Positions 12,120 through 18,177 of a stretch of 38,301 nucleotides of DNA are shown piece by piece (positions within the stretch are counted from its first letter, which is position 1; each line of letters opens with the position of its first letter). Below the pieces are notes generated by a model that did no database searches, had not been told where the DNA came from, and worked only from the letters and a program-made list of their open reading frames with translations. The translations under genes were made by a program, and so were the position numbers. Source of the stretch: an uncultured Methanomicrobiales archaeon (GTDB taxonomy: Archaea > Halobacteriota > Methanomicrobia > Methanomicrobiales > Methanospirillaceae); NCBI GenBank assembly GCA_903926075.1, contig CAIYHQ010000063.1, positions 1-38,301 of the forward strand, written 5' to 3'.

Positions 12120-14045
12120 TTATTTTATTACGGTTATTGGTTCCTGCTGGGTCGCACAATGAAAAGTGCCCATACCTTCTACCATCGCCCTGCAATTTAT
12201 TCCGACAACTTTTCTATTTGGGAACTCTTCTCCAATTATTTTTAATGCAAGAGAATCTGCAGGATCATTAAAAACAGGAACAATAACTACTGAATTTCCT
12301 ATAAAAAAATTCGTATAACTTGCTGGAAACCGTCTATTCTCCCATTCTACAGCTGCCGGCATTGGGAGTTTCACCACAGACAACTTGTTTTTGGTTTCAT
12401 CTGTCACATTCTTTATTATTTCGTAATTTTCCTTCAGAACAGAGTAATTTTCATCAGATTTATCTGCTTCAAATGCACAAAGAACAGTGGATGGGCTCGT
12501 AAACCTGGCAATGTCATCAATGTGACCGTCAGTATCGTCCCCCGCTATTCCCTCGTTTAACCATATTATATTTGAAACACCGAGATATTTGCATAAGTTC
12601 TCTTCTATCTCCCACTCGGTAAGCTCGGGATTACGGTTCTTATTGAGTAGACATGAGCGGGTAGTAATCAGTGTGCCTCTGCCATTTACTTCAACCGAAC
12701 CTCCTTCGAGTACCATTCCTGGTTTGTAAATGGGAAGATTTCTCCAACTATTTATTATACCTGGTATTTCCCGGTCTTTTACCAAAGAATCATATTTATT
12801 ACCCCATGCATTAAAGTCCCAGTTTACAAGTGCAACTTCATTTGTTGACCTGTTTACGACAAATTCCGGACCATAATCACGTATCCAGACATCGGCATAA
12901 TCAGTAATCCGGAAAGATATACGGTCAATAGGAACACTTGCTTTTGCAAGGATTGTTGTGACTCTCTCTTGCATTTGAAGATCGGTAACAAGGAGTTCCA
13001 CTATTTCAGAAAAACTTATTCCCTTTATAAATTCAGTATAAGTCTTTTCAACTTCATTAAGGTGAGGAAATGTCTCTCTGTCATGTGGCCAGGCCATCCA
13101 GACTCCGTAATGTGGTTCCCATTCTGCGGGCATATGAAATCCCTGATTACTTGGATTAATACCAAGATTTATTCTTGTCTTTGCATCTTTCCCATAGGCT
13201 GAACAGATTTTCTTGTATGTTTCAGGCCTTCTGTTACGTATAAATCCCCAGGAATCTCTTAATGCCTGGTTCTGTGCAAGATCTGCTGTGCCTATCAGGA
13301 CTTCTTCTTCGTCTCCTGATTTGGCAATGATATTTCCAAACGGGTCGCAAAGAAACGACCCACCAAAAAAGAGGATATCTCCCTCTGTTCCTACACGGTT
13401 AACTGCGGCAACGTGGACACTGTTTGCAATTGCATGGCTTCTCTGAATAGTTTCCCATGCATTTTGCCAGTTTCCTTCATCTGGGATTTGGAGTTTGGGA
13501 TAACCTATGGCAGTAGGATAAAAAATTATTTCAGCTCCCTCAATTGCAACCTTTCGTGCTGCTTCCGGGAACCACTGGTCATAACATATCATAACTGCAA
13601 TTTTTCCAAACTTTGTCTGAAATATCCGATATTCGCTACCAGGACGAAAATAACCTTTTTCGTAAAACCCAGGGTCCTGTGGGATATGGATTTTACGGTA
13701 AGGACTTCCAATAATCCCTCTGGAATCAATGACAACGGCTGTGTTATAAAAATTATTACCTTCAGCCTTTTCAAAAACAGGGACGATAATAACTATGTCT
13801 TTTTCACTCGCAATCTTTTGAAAAGTTCTCGTTGACTCCCCTGGAATTAATTCAGCAAGATTTGAGCAGTCTCTCCCGATATACTGTGGAAAATATTTTG
13901 TTCTGTATAGTTCGGGGAGACATATTATCTGAGCTCCTTTTAATATTGCATCGAGAATTAGAGTCCGGGCATTTTTGAGATTTTTTCCGGGGTCAAGAAG
14001 AACGCGTGTCTGAATCAGTCCGATAGTTACTTTTTTTTGTATCAT
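12120..14045 (-). CDS. Bifunctional N-carbamoylputrescine amidase / agmatine deiminase fusion
   Basis: The 641-residue ORF joins two enzymes in one frame. Residues 1 to about 285 are a nitrilase-family amidase with the full Glu-Lys-Cys triad (E45 in LPELY, K118 in YRKIHIPQ, C154 in MICYDQWFPEAAR), closest in pattern to N-carbamoylputrescine amidase (AguB). Residues about 295-641 are an agmatine deiminase (AguA) with MPAEWEPHYGVWMAWP, DYADVWIRDYGP, LEGGSVEVNGRGTL, GHIDD (H508, D510) and the catalytic cysteine C630 in GMGTFHCATQQEP. Together they would convert agmatine to N-carbamoylputrescine plus ammonia and then to putrescine, CO2 and ammonia. No stop or frameshift separates the halves. Both active sites look intact, but activity is inferred. 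Confidence 0.9.
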   Translation of the reverse strand: MIQKKVTIGLIQTRVLLDPGKNLKNARTLILDAILKGAQIICLPELYRTKYFPQYIGRDCSNLAELIPGESTRTFQKIASEKDIVIIVPVFEKAEGNNFYNTAVVIDSRGIIGSPYRKIHIPQDPGFYEKGYFRPGSEYRIFQTKFGKIAVMICYDQWFPEAARKVAIEGAEIIFYPTAIGYPKLQIPDEGNWQNAWETIQRSHAIANSVHVAAVNRVGTEGDILFFGGSFLCDPFGNIIAKSGDEEEVLIGTADLAQNQALRDSWGFIRNRRPETYKKICSAYGKDAKTRINLGINPSNQGFHMPAEWEPHYGVWMAWPHDRETFPHLNEVEKTYTEFIKGISFSEIVELLVTDLQMQERVTTILAKASVPIDRISFRITDYADVWIRDYGPEFVVNRSTNEVALVNWDFNAWGNKYDSLVKDREIPGIINSWRNLPIYKPGMVLEGGSVEVNGRGTLITTRSCLLNKNRNPELTEWEIEENLCKYLGVSNIIWLNEGIAGDDTDGHIDDIARFTSPSTVLCAFEADKSDENYSVLKENYEIIKNVTDETKNKLSVVKLPMPAAVEWENRRFPASYTNFFIGNSVVIVPVFNDPADSLALKIIGEEFPNRKVVGINCRAMVEGMGTFHCATQQEPITVIK

Positions 14046-14285: not shown

Positions 14286-17276
14286 ATGAATTTATCCTAC
14301 TTATTTTTATTCATAAATCTTATTATCTTTACAGGTTTAGTTTCGTCTGTATCCGGCATTCAAACATCTTCATCCGCCGATAATATGATGAAAACAGATC
14401 TCTTCAGGGATAAGTTTGGTGTCGATGGCTGGGGTATGAAGGTAGGAGTCATTTCAGATGGTGTCGACTCCATTGGTGCCCTTGTTGAGAAGGGATACAT
14501 CCCCCCGGATGTTACAATTCTCCGGAACAGTCGTGGTGGCGATGAAGGAACAAAAATGCTTGAAGTGATTCATTCGATTGCTCCAGGTGCATCATTATAT
14601 TTTCATGACTCAGGAACCAACCCGAATGATTTTACTATGGCTGTGAGGGAGCTCGTCAATTCCGGATGCCAGATAATCTGTGATGATGTCATATGGTTAA
14701 ATGCACCGGTATTTGAAGACGGTTCTTATGCGGGTAATATTAAAAAGATTATTGCGGAAAACAACTCAGTTATCCTTGTATCAGCAGCCGGAAATTATGC
14801 GAAGAAACATTACCAGGGAAATTATTGTCCGGATACGCAAGGAATTCAGGATTTCTCCTGTGGAAATAAATCAAAAAAAGGAATATACCTATCAGTTCCT
14901 TTTGAAGGAAAACTTGTATCAGTCCTGAAATGGGCGGATAAATCAGGTCACTCTACGAATAACTTTTCGTTATTTCTCCAAAATCCAGACACAGGCGAAC
15001 GTATTATATCGGGTACTATGTTGAATGATGAATCTGGCAATCCATTTCAATTTATGAGAGGGATAAATATGAACCTCACAACTCAGGACGTTGAAATATT
15101 ACTGGAAGGAAACGGGATAGGAAAGAACAATACAACTATTGACCTTTTGCTTGTGACAGGACCCGGTATAATGGTTCAGGGAACAAATATCGTCTCTGAT
15201 CACTCTGTTTTTGGCCATTCTGTTCTTCCGGACGTGATAAGTGTTGCTGCGGGAAATATCGAAACAGATGGGAAAATTGAAGACTTTTCTTCGCGGGGGA
15301 CAAGCACAATTCTTAATCCTTTTCCCCAGGCAAGAAAAAAACCTGATATTACAGCTCCTGACGGAGTAATAGTCCATGATGCAACCGGTAATGAAGTCAG
15401 GTTCGATGGCACAAGTGCAGCAGCACCAAATGTTGCAGGGGCTCTCGCCCTCTTATGGCGGGCTTTTCCCTCGAAAAATTCTTCAGAAATACGAGTGGCC
15501 CTTTATAATTCAGCTACTGATTATGGAAAGCCGGGTTGGGATGAAATATATGGATATGGATTTATAAATATCCTGGGGGCTTCAGAAAAACTTGGCGGAA
15601 TTAAAGCAGCATATGGACAACCAGGAAAAAAACCCATTTCATCGGGGAGTTCAGTTATATTGAATATTACTACTACAGTACCAACTATAGGCCCTGATGG
15701 ATATATTGCCATTAACAGTTCTTTTCGAGTATCAAAACCCGGGAAATACCGTCTTAGTAATGATATTCTTACCGATCTACATGCATCAATTATTTCAATC
15801 GAGAGTTCTGATGTAACGTTCGATGGAGCCGGTCATACCATTGAAGGTGTTATTGTAGGGGATGCCCGCGAAATCCGTCAGGCCGGTATTATGGTTGGGG
15901 GAGAGAGAACGGGAATATCGGATGTACTAATTTCAAACCTGAGTTTAAGAAACCTGGATTTTGGAGTGTTCATTACAAAAGTTAAACGTGTTAAGTTAAA
16001 AAACGTCTCAATATCAGGCTCCTGGGCAGGTATATTTACATTTTACAGTGAAATTGTGAATATTAATTCCGTAAATGCCTCAGGTAATGAATATGGAATT
16101 TCTAACGTAAAATCGATTAATCTCAATATTTCAGATTCTATAGCCCTCGATAATAGGGAGACCGGTATTGCAGTAATGGAAAACCGGGATTTATCAGTTG
16201 TTTCAAATTTATTGTTGCACAATAAAATCGGGATATGGATATTAAAATCAACAGGAATAACAATTTACTCAAATAATTTAAGCAATAATCGCAATATAGG
16301 TTTTTTAGGGTGGGAAAACAGGGATTTATCAATTGTTTCAAATTTATTGTCTCTAAATGATTATGGAATATCAATATCGAATTCAACCGGAATAACAATT
16401 TACTTAAATAATTTAAGAAATAGCTTTGATAAAGGGCTTTCTTCAAGATACGATAAAAATATTTCTGTAATGTCGAATGTTGCAGAAAATAACTCTAAAG
16501 TCTGTTTTGCAATTACCGATGGAACTGATGTGCATATTGTGAACAATTCCTGTAAAGGTAGTCAGCTAATAGGTATCGGTCTTGCATATATAGCCCCGGA
16601 TTTATCTGTCATTTCAAATGTTTGTGAAGGAAATGGTTTGGGAATAGCACTCAGGGGGGCAGATAATGCACAAGTATATTTAAATGAAGTAAAGAATGGT
16701 TCTGGAACAGGGATTTCACTATTTAACTCTTCAAAATTAATAGTAAGCAATAATAAAATAACTGGAAACAAAGATATTGGGCTGATCTTGAGCCATATAA
16801 CACAGTCAAATATATCAGATAACCGTATTTCTGAAAATAATGGAGGAATAAGTCTCGATAGCGGATCTAACCTGAATAAATTGATTAAGAATATAATATC
16901 AGGTCAGCAGATTGGTGTCTTTAGTTCTCAATCAGGTCAGAACGAATTCTCAGGTAATACTATCACTGGGAATTCAATTGGAATTGGATTCCAGCTATCA
17001 GACGAGAGTTTATTTTATGATAACCGTATTGTTAATTTCAGAAATTTCTATGAAGACTCACCAAATCCTGGTAATAGGTGGAATATTTTACCATATAAGA
17101 AAACAAATATTATAAATGGAACATTTACCGGTGGCAACTACTGGGGGTATCCCAACAACACTGGCTACTCCGATCTATGCACGGTTAATAATGAAACAGG
17201 ATTCTGTACAGGAACTTACCAGATATCAGAAAACAACACAGATTATTTTCCTCTTGGGCATTCAAGTTTCAATTGA
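14286..17276 (+). CDS. Secreted subtilase (S8 peptidase) with NosD-type beta-helix repeats
   Basis: The 996-residue protein begins with a signal peptide (LFLFINLIIFTGLVSSVSG, about residues 1-24). The S8 protease domain (about 30-435) has D58 (VGVISDG), H96 (MLEVIHSIAPGA) and S377 (DGTSAAAPNVAG) as its triad. The rest (about 470-960) is a right-handed beta-helix of NosD/periplasmic-copper-binding type, with many short repeats such as GISISNSTGITIYLNNL. There is no C-terminal sortase-like or PGF anchor. The beta-helix could bind polysaccharide or the cell surface, with the protease processing S-layer or neighbouring proteins; that is inference. A near-palindromic AT-rich stem follows the stop codon. 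Confidence 0.88.
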   Translation: MNLSYLFLFINLIIFTGLVSSVSGIQTSSSADNMMKTDLFRDKFGVDGWGMKVGVISDGVDSIGALVEKGYIPPDVTILRNSRGGDEGTKMLEVIHSIAPGASLYFHDSGTNPNDFTMAVRELVNSGCQIICDDVIWLNAPVFEDGSYAGNIKKIIAENNSVILVSAAGNYAKKHYQGNYCPDTQGIQDFSCGNKSKKGIYLSVPFEGKLVSVLKWADKSGHSTNNFSLFLQNPDTGERIISGTMLNDESGNPFQFMRGINMNLTTQDVEILLEGNGIGKNNTTIDLLLVTGPGIMVQGTNIVSDHSVFGHSVLPDVISVAAGNIETDGKIEDFSSRGTSTILNPFPQARKKPDITAPDGVIVHDATGNEVRFDGTSAAAPNVAGALALLWRAFPSKNSSEIRVALYNSATDYGKPGWDEIYGYGFINILGASEKLGGIKAAYGQPGKKPISSGSSVILNITTTVPTIGPDGYIAINSSFRVSKPGKYRLSNDILTDLHASIISIESSDVTFDGAGHTIEGVIVGDAREIRQAGIMVGGERTGISDVLISNLSLRNLDFGVFITKVKRVKLKNVSISGSWAGIFTFYSEIVNINSVNASGNEYGISNVKSINLNISDSIALDNRETGIAVMENRDLSVVSNLLLHNKIGIWILKSTGITIYSNNLSNNRNIGFLGWENRDLSIVSNLLSLNDYGISISNSTGITIYLNNLRNSFDKGLSSRYDKNISVMSNVAENNSKVCFAITDGTDVHIVNNSCKGSQLIGIGLAYIAPDLSVISNVCEGNGLGIALRGADNAQVYLNEVKNGSGTGISLFNSSKLIVSNNKITGNKDIGLILSHITQSNISDNRISENNGGISLDSGSNLNKLIKNIISGQQIGVFSSQSGQNEFSGNTITGNSIGIGFQLSDESLFYDNRIVNFRNFYEDSPNPGNRWNILPYKKTNIINGTFTGGNYWGYPNNTGYSDLCTVNNETGFCTGTYQISENNTDYFPLGHSSFN
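16179..16448 (+). repeat. Two-copy 135-bp repeat inside the NosD region
   Basis: The segment beginning ENRDLSVVSNLL at 16179 recurs as ENRDLSIVSNLL at 16314. The 135-bp (45-residue) offset continues through STGITIYSNNLSNN and STGITIYLNNLRNS. The DNA copies are nearly identical in places, so this is a recent internal duplication of beta-helix turns. Confidence 0.75.
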
Positions 17277-17397: not shown

Positions 17398-18177
17398 ATG
17401 AAAATTATCTTTCACGACAAGTTCTATAAATCTGATTATGCCGATAACGGAGCATCAGTTCCAGGCAGAATGGAAGTTATAATGGAAGCTATACGCCGTG
17501 AAAGGACCTTTGAGATAGTCCCTGCAAGGCCTGCCACTGAAGAAGAGATACTACTGGTTCATCCAAAGTCGTACATTGACATTGTCAGGAAAAATGACAG
17601 TTTATACGAAATTTCGCTCCTTGCGGCCGGGGCCTCAATTATGGCAGCAGATATTGGTTTCTCCGGAGAACCGGCATTTGCATGCATCAGGCCCCCGGGA
17701 CATCATGCAAGCCGGGAATCAGCCTGGGGTTACTGCACTTTCTCCAACATGGGAATTGCACTTTTAAGTCTTAAAGCACAGAATAAAATAAAATCAGCCT
17801 TTATTTTGGACTTTGACACCCACACCGGAGATGGTACAAAAGATGTGCTTCGCGACTGGAAAGAATGCAAGGTCCTGAATCCATATGCTGAAAATAGACA
17901 GAGTTATATAAAAGAGATAGATGATTTCACAAGAGAGATCGCCTCAGTTGATATCATTGCAGTATGTGCAGGATTTGACTCATATGAGAAAGATATCGGA
18001 AAGAAATTGTCAACTTCCGACTTCTACAACATAGGTGTTATAATGAAGCAATTATCTAACAGAGTGGCACATGGTCGAAGGTTTGCAATTCTTGAGGGTG
18101 GATATTACCTTCCTGACCTTGGAATAAATGTGACTGAATTCTGCAAAGGGTTCAGATATGGAAGGTTAATGCAATGA
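17398..18177 (+). CDS. Histone-deacetylase-family (AcuC/acetylpolyamine amidohydrolase-like) deacetylase
   Basis: The 259-residue protein has the conserved zinc-deacetylase sites: RPPGHHA (H102-H103), DFDTHTGDGT (zinc ligands D140 and H142), AGFDSY (D194) and EGGYY with the catalytic tyrosine at 236. It is shorter than the usual family length of about 310-375 residues, although all catalytic residues are present. The family removes acetyl groups from lysines or polyamines. Its last 4 bp overlap the acetyltransferase gene. A TATA-like GGTTTTATAT at about 17360-17369 lies about 30 bp before the ATG, which suggests a leaderless transcript. The substrate cannot be told from sequence; polyamine is one possibility given the nearby agmatine enzyme. 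Confidence 0.85.
   Translation: MKIIFHDKFYKSDYADNGASVPGRMEVIMEAIRRERTFEIVPARPATEEEILLVHPKSYIDIVRKNDSLYEISLLAAGASIMAADIGFSGEPAFACIRPPGHHASRESAWGYCTFSNMGIALLSLKAQNKIKSAFILDFDTHTGDGTKDVLRDWKECKVLNPYAENRQSYIKEIDDFTREIASVDIIAVCAGFDSYEKDIGKKLSTSDFYNIGVIMKQLSNRVAHGRRFAILEGGYYLPDLGINVTEFCKGFRYGRLMQ

Follow-up and report, generated by a model that had tools for sequence, protein, structure and literature searches.

A fused AguB-AguA gene of Methanomicrobiales and related methanogens predicted to convert agmatine to putrescine

A single gene in an uncultured Methanomicrobiales archaeon encodes a protein in which an AguB-like nitrilase is fused to an AguA-like deiminase. The gene lies in a 38,301-nucleotide stretch of DNA, referred to here as the window. 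We consider it very likely that its product is a bifunctional enzyme for putrescine synthesis that replaces agmatinase in these methanogens. The strongest evidence is the mutual exclusion of the fusion and agmatinase among related genomes, which strongly suggests that the predicted enzyme carries agmatine through N-carbamoylputrescine to putrescine. The fusion is real, conserved and common to most relatives, and it represents a little-noticed variant of an established pathway, not one that is new in kind.

The initial annotation had described two enzymes in one 641-residue chain. The corresponding open reading frame occupies exactly the interval given there and is uninterrupted from an ATG at position 14045, on the minus strand, which the annotation had left unsaid. 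The plus strand of the same interval carries many stops. The coordinates of the gene and its parts are collected in Table 1.

Table 1. Coordinates in the window of the fusion gene and its predicted parts
Feature	Positions	Strand	Remarks
aguB-aguA fusion gene	12120..14045	-	641 codons plus stop; single-frame orthologues in relatives
Nitrilase-superfamily domain (CN_hydrolase / AguB, N-carbamoylputrescine amidase-like)	13257..14024	-	N-terminal, residues 8-263
Linker, 27 residues	13134..13214	-	residues 278-304
Pentein domain (PAD_porph / AguA, agmatine deiminase-like)	12138..13136	-	C-terminal, residues 304-636
Cys154 codon	13584..13586	-	nitrilase nucleophile position; equivalent to MtCPA Cys158
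Cys630 codon	12156..12158	-	deiminase nucleophile position; equivalent to MtAIH Cys366

Both domains are matched by Pfam far above the respective cut-offs, CN_hydrolase with an E-value of 8.8e-57 and PAD_porph with one of 7.5e-117, the latter match covering the profile completely (1-321 of 321). Among NCBIfam models, the C-terminal half matches those for agmatine deiminase best, and the N-terminal half matches that for N-carbamoylputrescine amidase best. Neither half reaches the equivalog cut-off of its model (288.6 versus 381.8 bits for TIGR03380, AguA; 252.8 versus 410.25 bits for TIGR03381, AguB), and these scores place the halves in AguA-like and AguB-like subfamilies within the wider groups, outside the trusted core of the equivalog models.

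The closest solved structures are likewise agmatine deiminases and N-carbamoylputrescine amidohydrolases. The C-terminal half shares its fold, the Cys/His/Asp set and the substrate-contact residues with the agmatine deiminases 2jer (E. faecalis), 3h7k (A. thaliana) and 3hvm (H. pylori), and with 1xkn from Chlorobium tepidum, which is the closest structure (43% identity) and is annotated only as a putative peptidyl-arginine deiminase. The N-terminal half shares the nitrilase fold, a Glu/Lys/Glu/Cys set and several hydrophobic pocket residues with the N-carbamoylputrescine amidohydrolase of Medicago truncatula (5h8i, MtCPA) and with a carbon-nitrogen hydrolase of H. pylori (6mg6). All of these proteins are stand-alone enzymes, unlike the window protein. 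Foldseek matched the two halves separately, to agmatine deiminases including 1xkn and to N-carbamoylputrescine amidohydrolases or carbon-nitrogen hydrolases, and no match spanned both halves among the top matches listed.

Alignment to the plant N-carbamoylputrescine amidohydrolase (PMC4812014) assigns the nitrilase triad to Glu45, Lys118 and Cys154, with Glu129 as a second glutamate. In the deiminase half, alignment to agmatine deiminases identifies Asp390 (the guanidine-binding aspartate), His508, Asp510 and Cys630, and the residues D385, W387, W414 and D504 correspond to D89, W91, W125 and D220, which contact agmatine in the plant enzyme (PMC6447857). The nucleophiles C154 and C630 had been named in the initial annotation, and both positions agree with the alignments to known structures. 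Its claim that both active sites are intact also holds: E45, K118, E129, C154, D390, H508, D510 and C630 are present in essentially all of 119 homologues, whether fused (64) or split (55), and the agmatine-contact positions D385, W387, W414 and D504 hardly vary either.

Some positions near the predicted substrate pockets do differ from the reference enzymes. The amidase half retains the equivalents of Tyr54, Pro125, Trp162, Ala183 and Ile184 of the MtCPA specificity pocket, whereas Tyr130 is replaced by Phe and Trp159 by Tyr. The amine-binding Glu187 of the plant enzyme is not conserved in the window protein or in the AguBA subfamily. Gly361 of plant AguA is a Met in the window protein and is variable in the subfamily. 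The H. pylori-type chain 2cmu also seems to lack this glycine in our alignment, and it aligns to the same stretch as 3hvm, which was deposited as H. pylori agmatine deiminase.

The initial annotation regarded the pathway as uncommon in methanogens, which does not fit its distribution. Within the family to which the window belongs, 106 of 108 genomes show some match, and 86 of the 108 carry a genuine AguBA gene, whether fused, split or truncated at the edge of a contig; the remainder match other nitrilases only. In a wider sample of Halobacteriota, a strong match occurs in 62 of 393 genomes. The fusion is spread over several families, including Methanoregula/Methanospirillum-type genomes, other Methanomicrobiales and Methanotrichaceae, with named relatives among Methanoregula, Methanolinea, Methanospirillum and Methanosaeta/Methanotrichaceae records. 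Purifying selection acts on each half of the protein (dN of about 0.02-0.07 versus dS of 0.14-0.51 in close pairs).

The agmatinase-model matches of the window's family fall into two groups that are about 27% identical to each other. Canonical archaeal agmatinase is found in all eight near-complete genomes without AguBA versus one of the 51 that carry it (Fisher p = 4e-9), and across all genomes in 12 of 21 versus one of 86 (p = 1e-9), where the p-values are nominal because genomes were treated as independent with phylogeny uncorrected. The second group, to which the ureohydrolase of the window's genome belongs (G000 C66, locus L116:1369-2352), is closest to guanidinopropionase/guanidinobutyrase, and its distribution is unrelated to that of AguBA; the host protein itself passes the NCBIfam agmatinase equivalog cut-off. 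The host genome has a pyruvoyl arginine decarboxylase (PvlArgDC-type), and arginine decarboxylase is present in 99 of the 108 family genomes. The host genome also carries TiaS. Its two deoxyhypusine-synthase-family proteins (C20, L159; C107, L160) occur in the absence of SpeD or SpeE, and we infer that C107 may be a SpeY-type homospermidine synthase. The C20 copy adjoins TiaS.

In the mechanism that we propose, the C-terminal pentein half would deiminate agmatine through a covalent intermediate on Cys630, yielding N-carbamoylputrescine and ammonia. The Glu45-Lys118-Cys154 triad of the N-terminal nitrilase half would then cleave N-carbamoylputrescine into putrescine, CO2 and ammonia. The halves would fold independently and be joined by a short flexible tether, and fusion would ensure that they are produced at a 1:1 ratio and kept close together, probably within a larger oligomer. 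The protein would take the place of agmatinase downstream of pyruvoyl arginine decarboxylase in these methanogens. The sub-cut-off AguA and AguB scores, the lack of conservation of plant Glu187 and Gly361, and the presence of a second ureohydrolase that matches the agmatinase model all count against this bifunctional assignment, which nevertheless remains our preferred one.

There is virtually no chance that an assembly or sequencing error joined two neighboring genes. In favor of such an error, the bacterial homologues are adjacent genes only a few bases apart. However, 54 of the 62 strongly matching genomes in the phylum sample, among them single-contig (closed) chromosomes, have both halves in one open frame, and the linker can be aligned between close relatives. 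That dozens of genomes assembled independently show this single frame excludes chance as well as the sequencing error that the initial annotation had raised as a caution. It is also extremely unlikely that the C-terminal half acts as a peptidylarginine deiminase. The name of the Pfam family, PAD_porph, and a weak match to chains so named (4yt9, E-value 8e-7) would suggest this activity, but agmatine deiminases match far better (E-values of about 1e-50 to 1e-64), the agmatine-contact residues are conserved and the partner half is AguB-like. Another reading holds that the enzyme acts on a modified agmatine, such as N1-aminopropylagmatine or carboxyaminopropylagmatine, and yields spermidine or carboxyspermidine in place of putrescine. 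Substrates of this type are used by known pathways of thermophiles and of other bacteria, and the amine-end residues of the window protein are unlike those of plant AguB. N1-aminopropylagmatine synthases are named in the title of one report (PMC11107197). The host genome argues against such a route, as it has no match to the AdoMet decarboxylase or aminopropyltransferase (spermidine synthase) families and no carboxynorspermidine decarboxylase above the cut-off. We therefore regard a modified substrate as very unlikely.

A stronger version of the bifunctional assignment, and one compatible with it, is that a fixed interdomain tunnel channels N-carbamoylputrescine between the active sites. The initial annotation had suggested channelling, and it is possible in that the two halves are physically linked and the active sites of homologues of both enzymes are deep funnels or tunnels (PMC4812014, PMC6447857). 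Its prospects are dampened by several observations. The linkers of orthologues range from 19 to 43 residues (median 29), and relatives manage with separate AguB and AguA proteins. An AlphaFold model of the window protein contains two confident domains (mean pLDDT 95) separated by a disordered stretch at residues 286-293 (pLDDT below 50), with a pTM of 0.67. Thus, the model predicts no fixed arrangement and leaves the mutual orientation of the domains unfixed. We infer that the linker data fit a flexible tether better than a rigid tunnel, and rate a channelling tunnel as improbable. A broader proposal, also unlikely although somewhat less so, is that most Methanomicrobiales and Methanotrichaceae make putrescine by the fusion rather than by agmatinase, and that a large mixed assembly, composed of an oligomeric nitrilase core with deiminase domains, keeps N-carbamoylputrescine enclosed and controls the pool of agmatine that also feeds tRNA-Ile modification by TiaS.

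The production of two proteins through internal initiation was also considered and rejected. The window linker has no ATG, GTG or TTG codon, nor do 26 others (27 of 63 fused linkers in all), and separate initiation of the second half from the window linker is therefore judged unlikely on codon content.

The fusion can be compared with several known arrangements. In most bacterial homologues, aguB is followed by an adjacent aguA, and in many of these pairs the gap is between -4 and a few dozen bases. Split adjacent genes are also found in one genus of the window's family (g17) and in one more distant genome. Tandem pairs from bacteria (such as L018, L023-L025, L056 and L071) and from this genus share the domains, their order and the catalytic residues with the window protein, at about 38-57% identity per half, but they encode two proteins with a stop codon between them whereas the window encodes one chain. 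The fusion probably arose by the joining of such a tandem operon, whose order and spacing persist in many bacteria and in the one genus of the family.

The family tree requires at least three changes between the fused and split states, and none of the bootstrap trees examined unites the fused sequences in a single clade. Yet an AU test does not reject one fused clade (p = 0.07), so that one to three fusion events appear indistinguishable from these sequences, whether as one fusion with later splitting or as a few fusions. The split aguB/aguA genes of L139-L149 (genus g17 and G461) lie beside or within the fused clade, and their joints consist of stops with small gaps or overlaps, which might reflect reversion of the fusion. 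Separately, a fused AguBA of archaeal type (58% and 49%) occurs on a contig with the label Acidobacteria (L034), which could indicate either gene transfer or misbinning.

The initial annotation suggested that this architecture had not been described before. A fused aguA-aguB gene has, in fact, been mentioned in a single sentence of a 2023 paper, for a Ca. Diapherotrites archaeon (PMC10407285). As described there, that fusion likewise combines both agmatine-to-putrescine enzymes in one archaeal gene. That gene forms a cluster with speDA and speY, whereas the window fusion stands alone in a methanogen with a PvlArgDC-type arginine decarboxylase. Our full-text search of open-licence papers found no biochemical study of an AguB-AguA fusion and no mention of the fusion in Methanomicrobiales.

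The fusion, alternating with agmatinase, probably accounts for the conversion of agmatine to putrescine in a large group of methanogens. It offers a one-polypeptide version of the classic two-step pathway that is open to assay and crystallization. Recognition of both halves would also guard against annotation of such proteins by one half alone or as peptidylarginine deiminases.

No polyamine genes are present in the neighborhood of the fusion gene. It is flanked by genes for a histidine kinase and a subtilase/NosD protein and by NifB-like and HisC-like genes. When the flanking ORFs of the window and 17 relatives were clustered, no neighbor recurred at this locus except histidine-kinase-like ORFs. 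The subtilase/NosD gene (14286-17276, plus strand) is divergent from the fusion gene and encodes a 996-amino-acid protein that combines a subtilase domain with NosD/beta-helix repeats. Farther along the same strand, positions 17398-18177 encode a 259-amino-acid protein that matches the histone deacetylase family and overlaps a small GNAT-like ORF.
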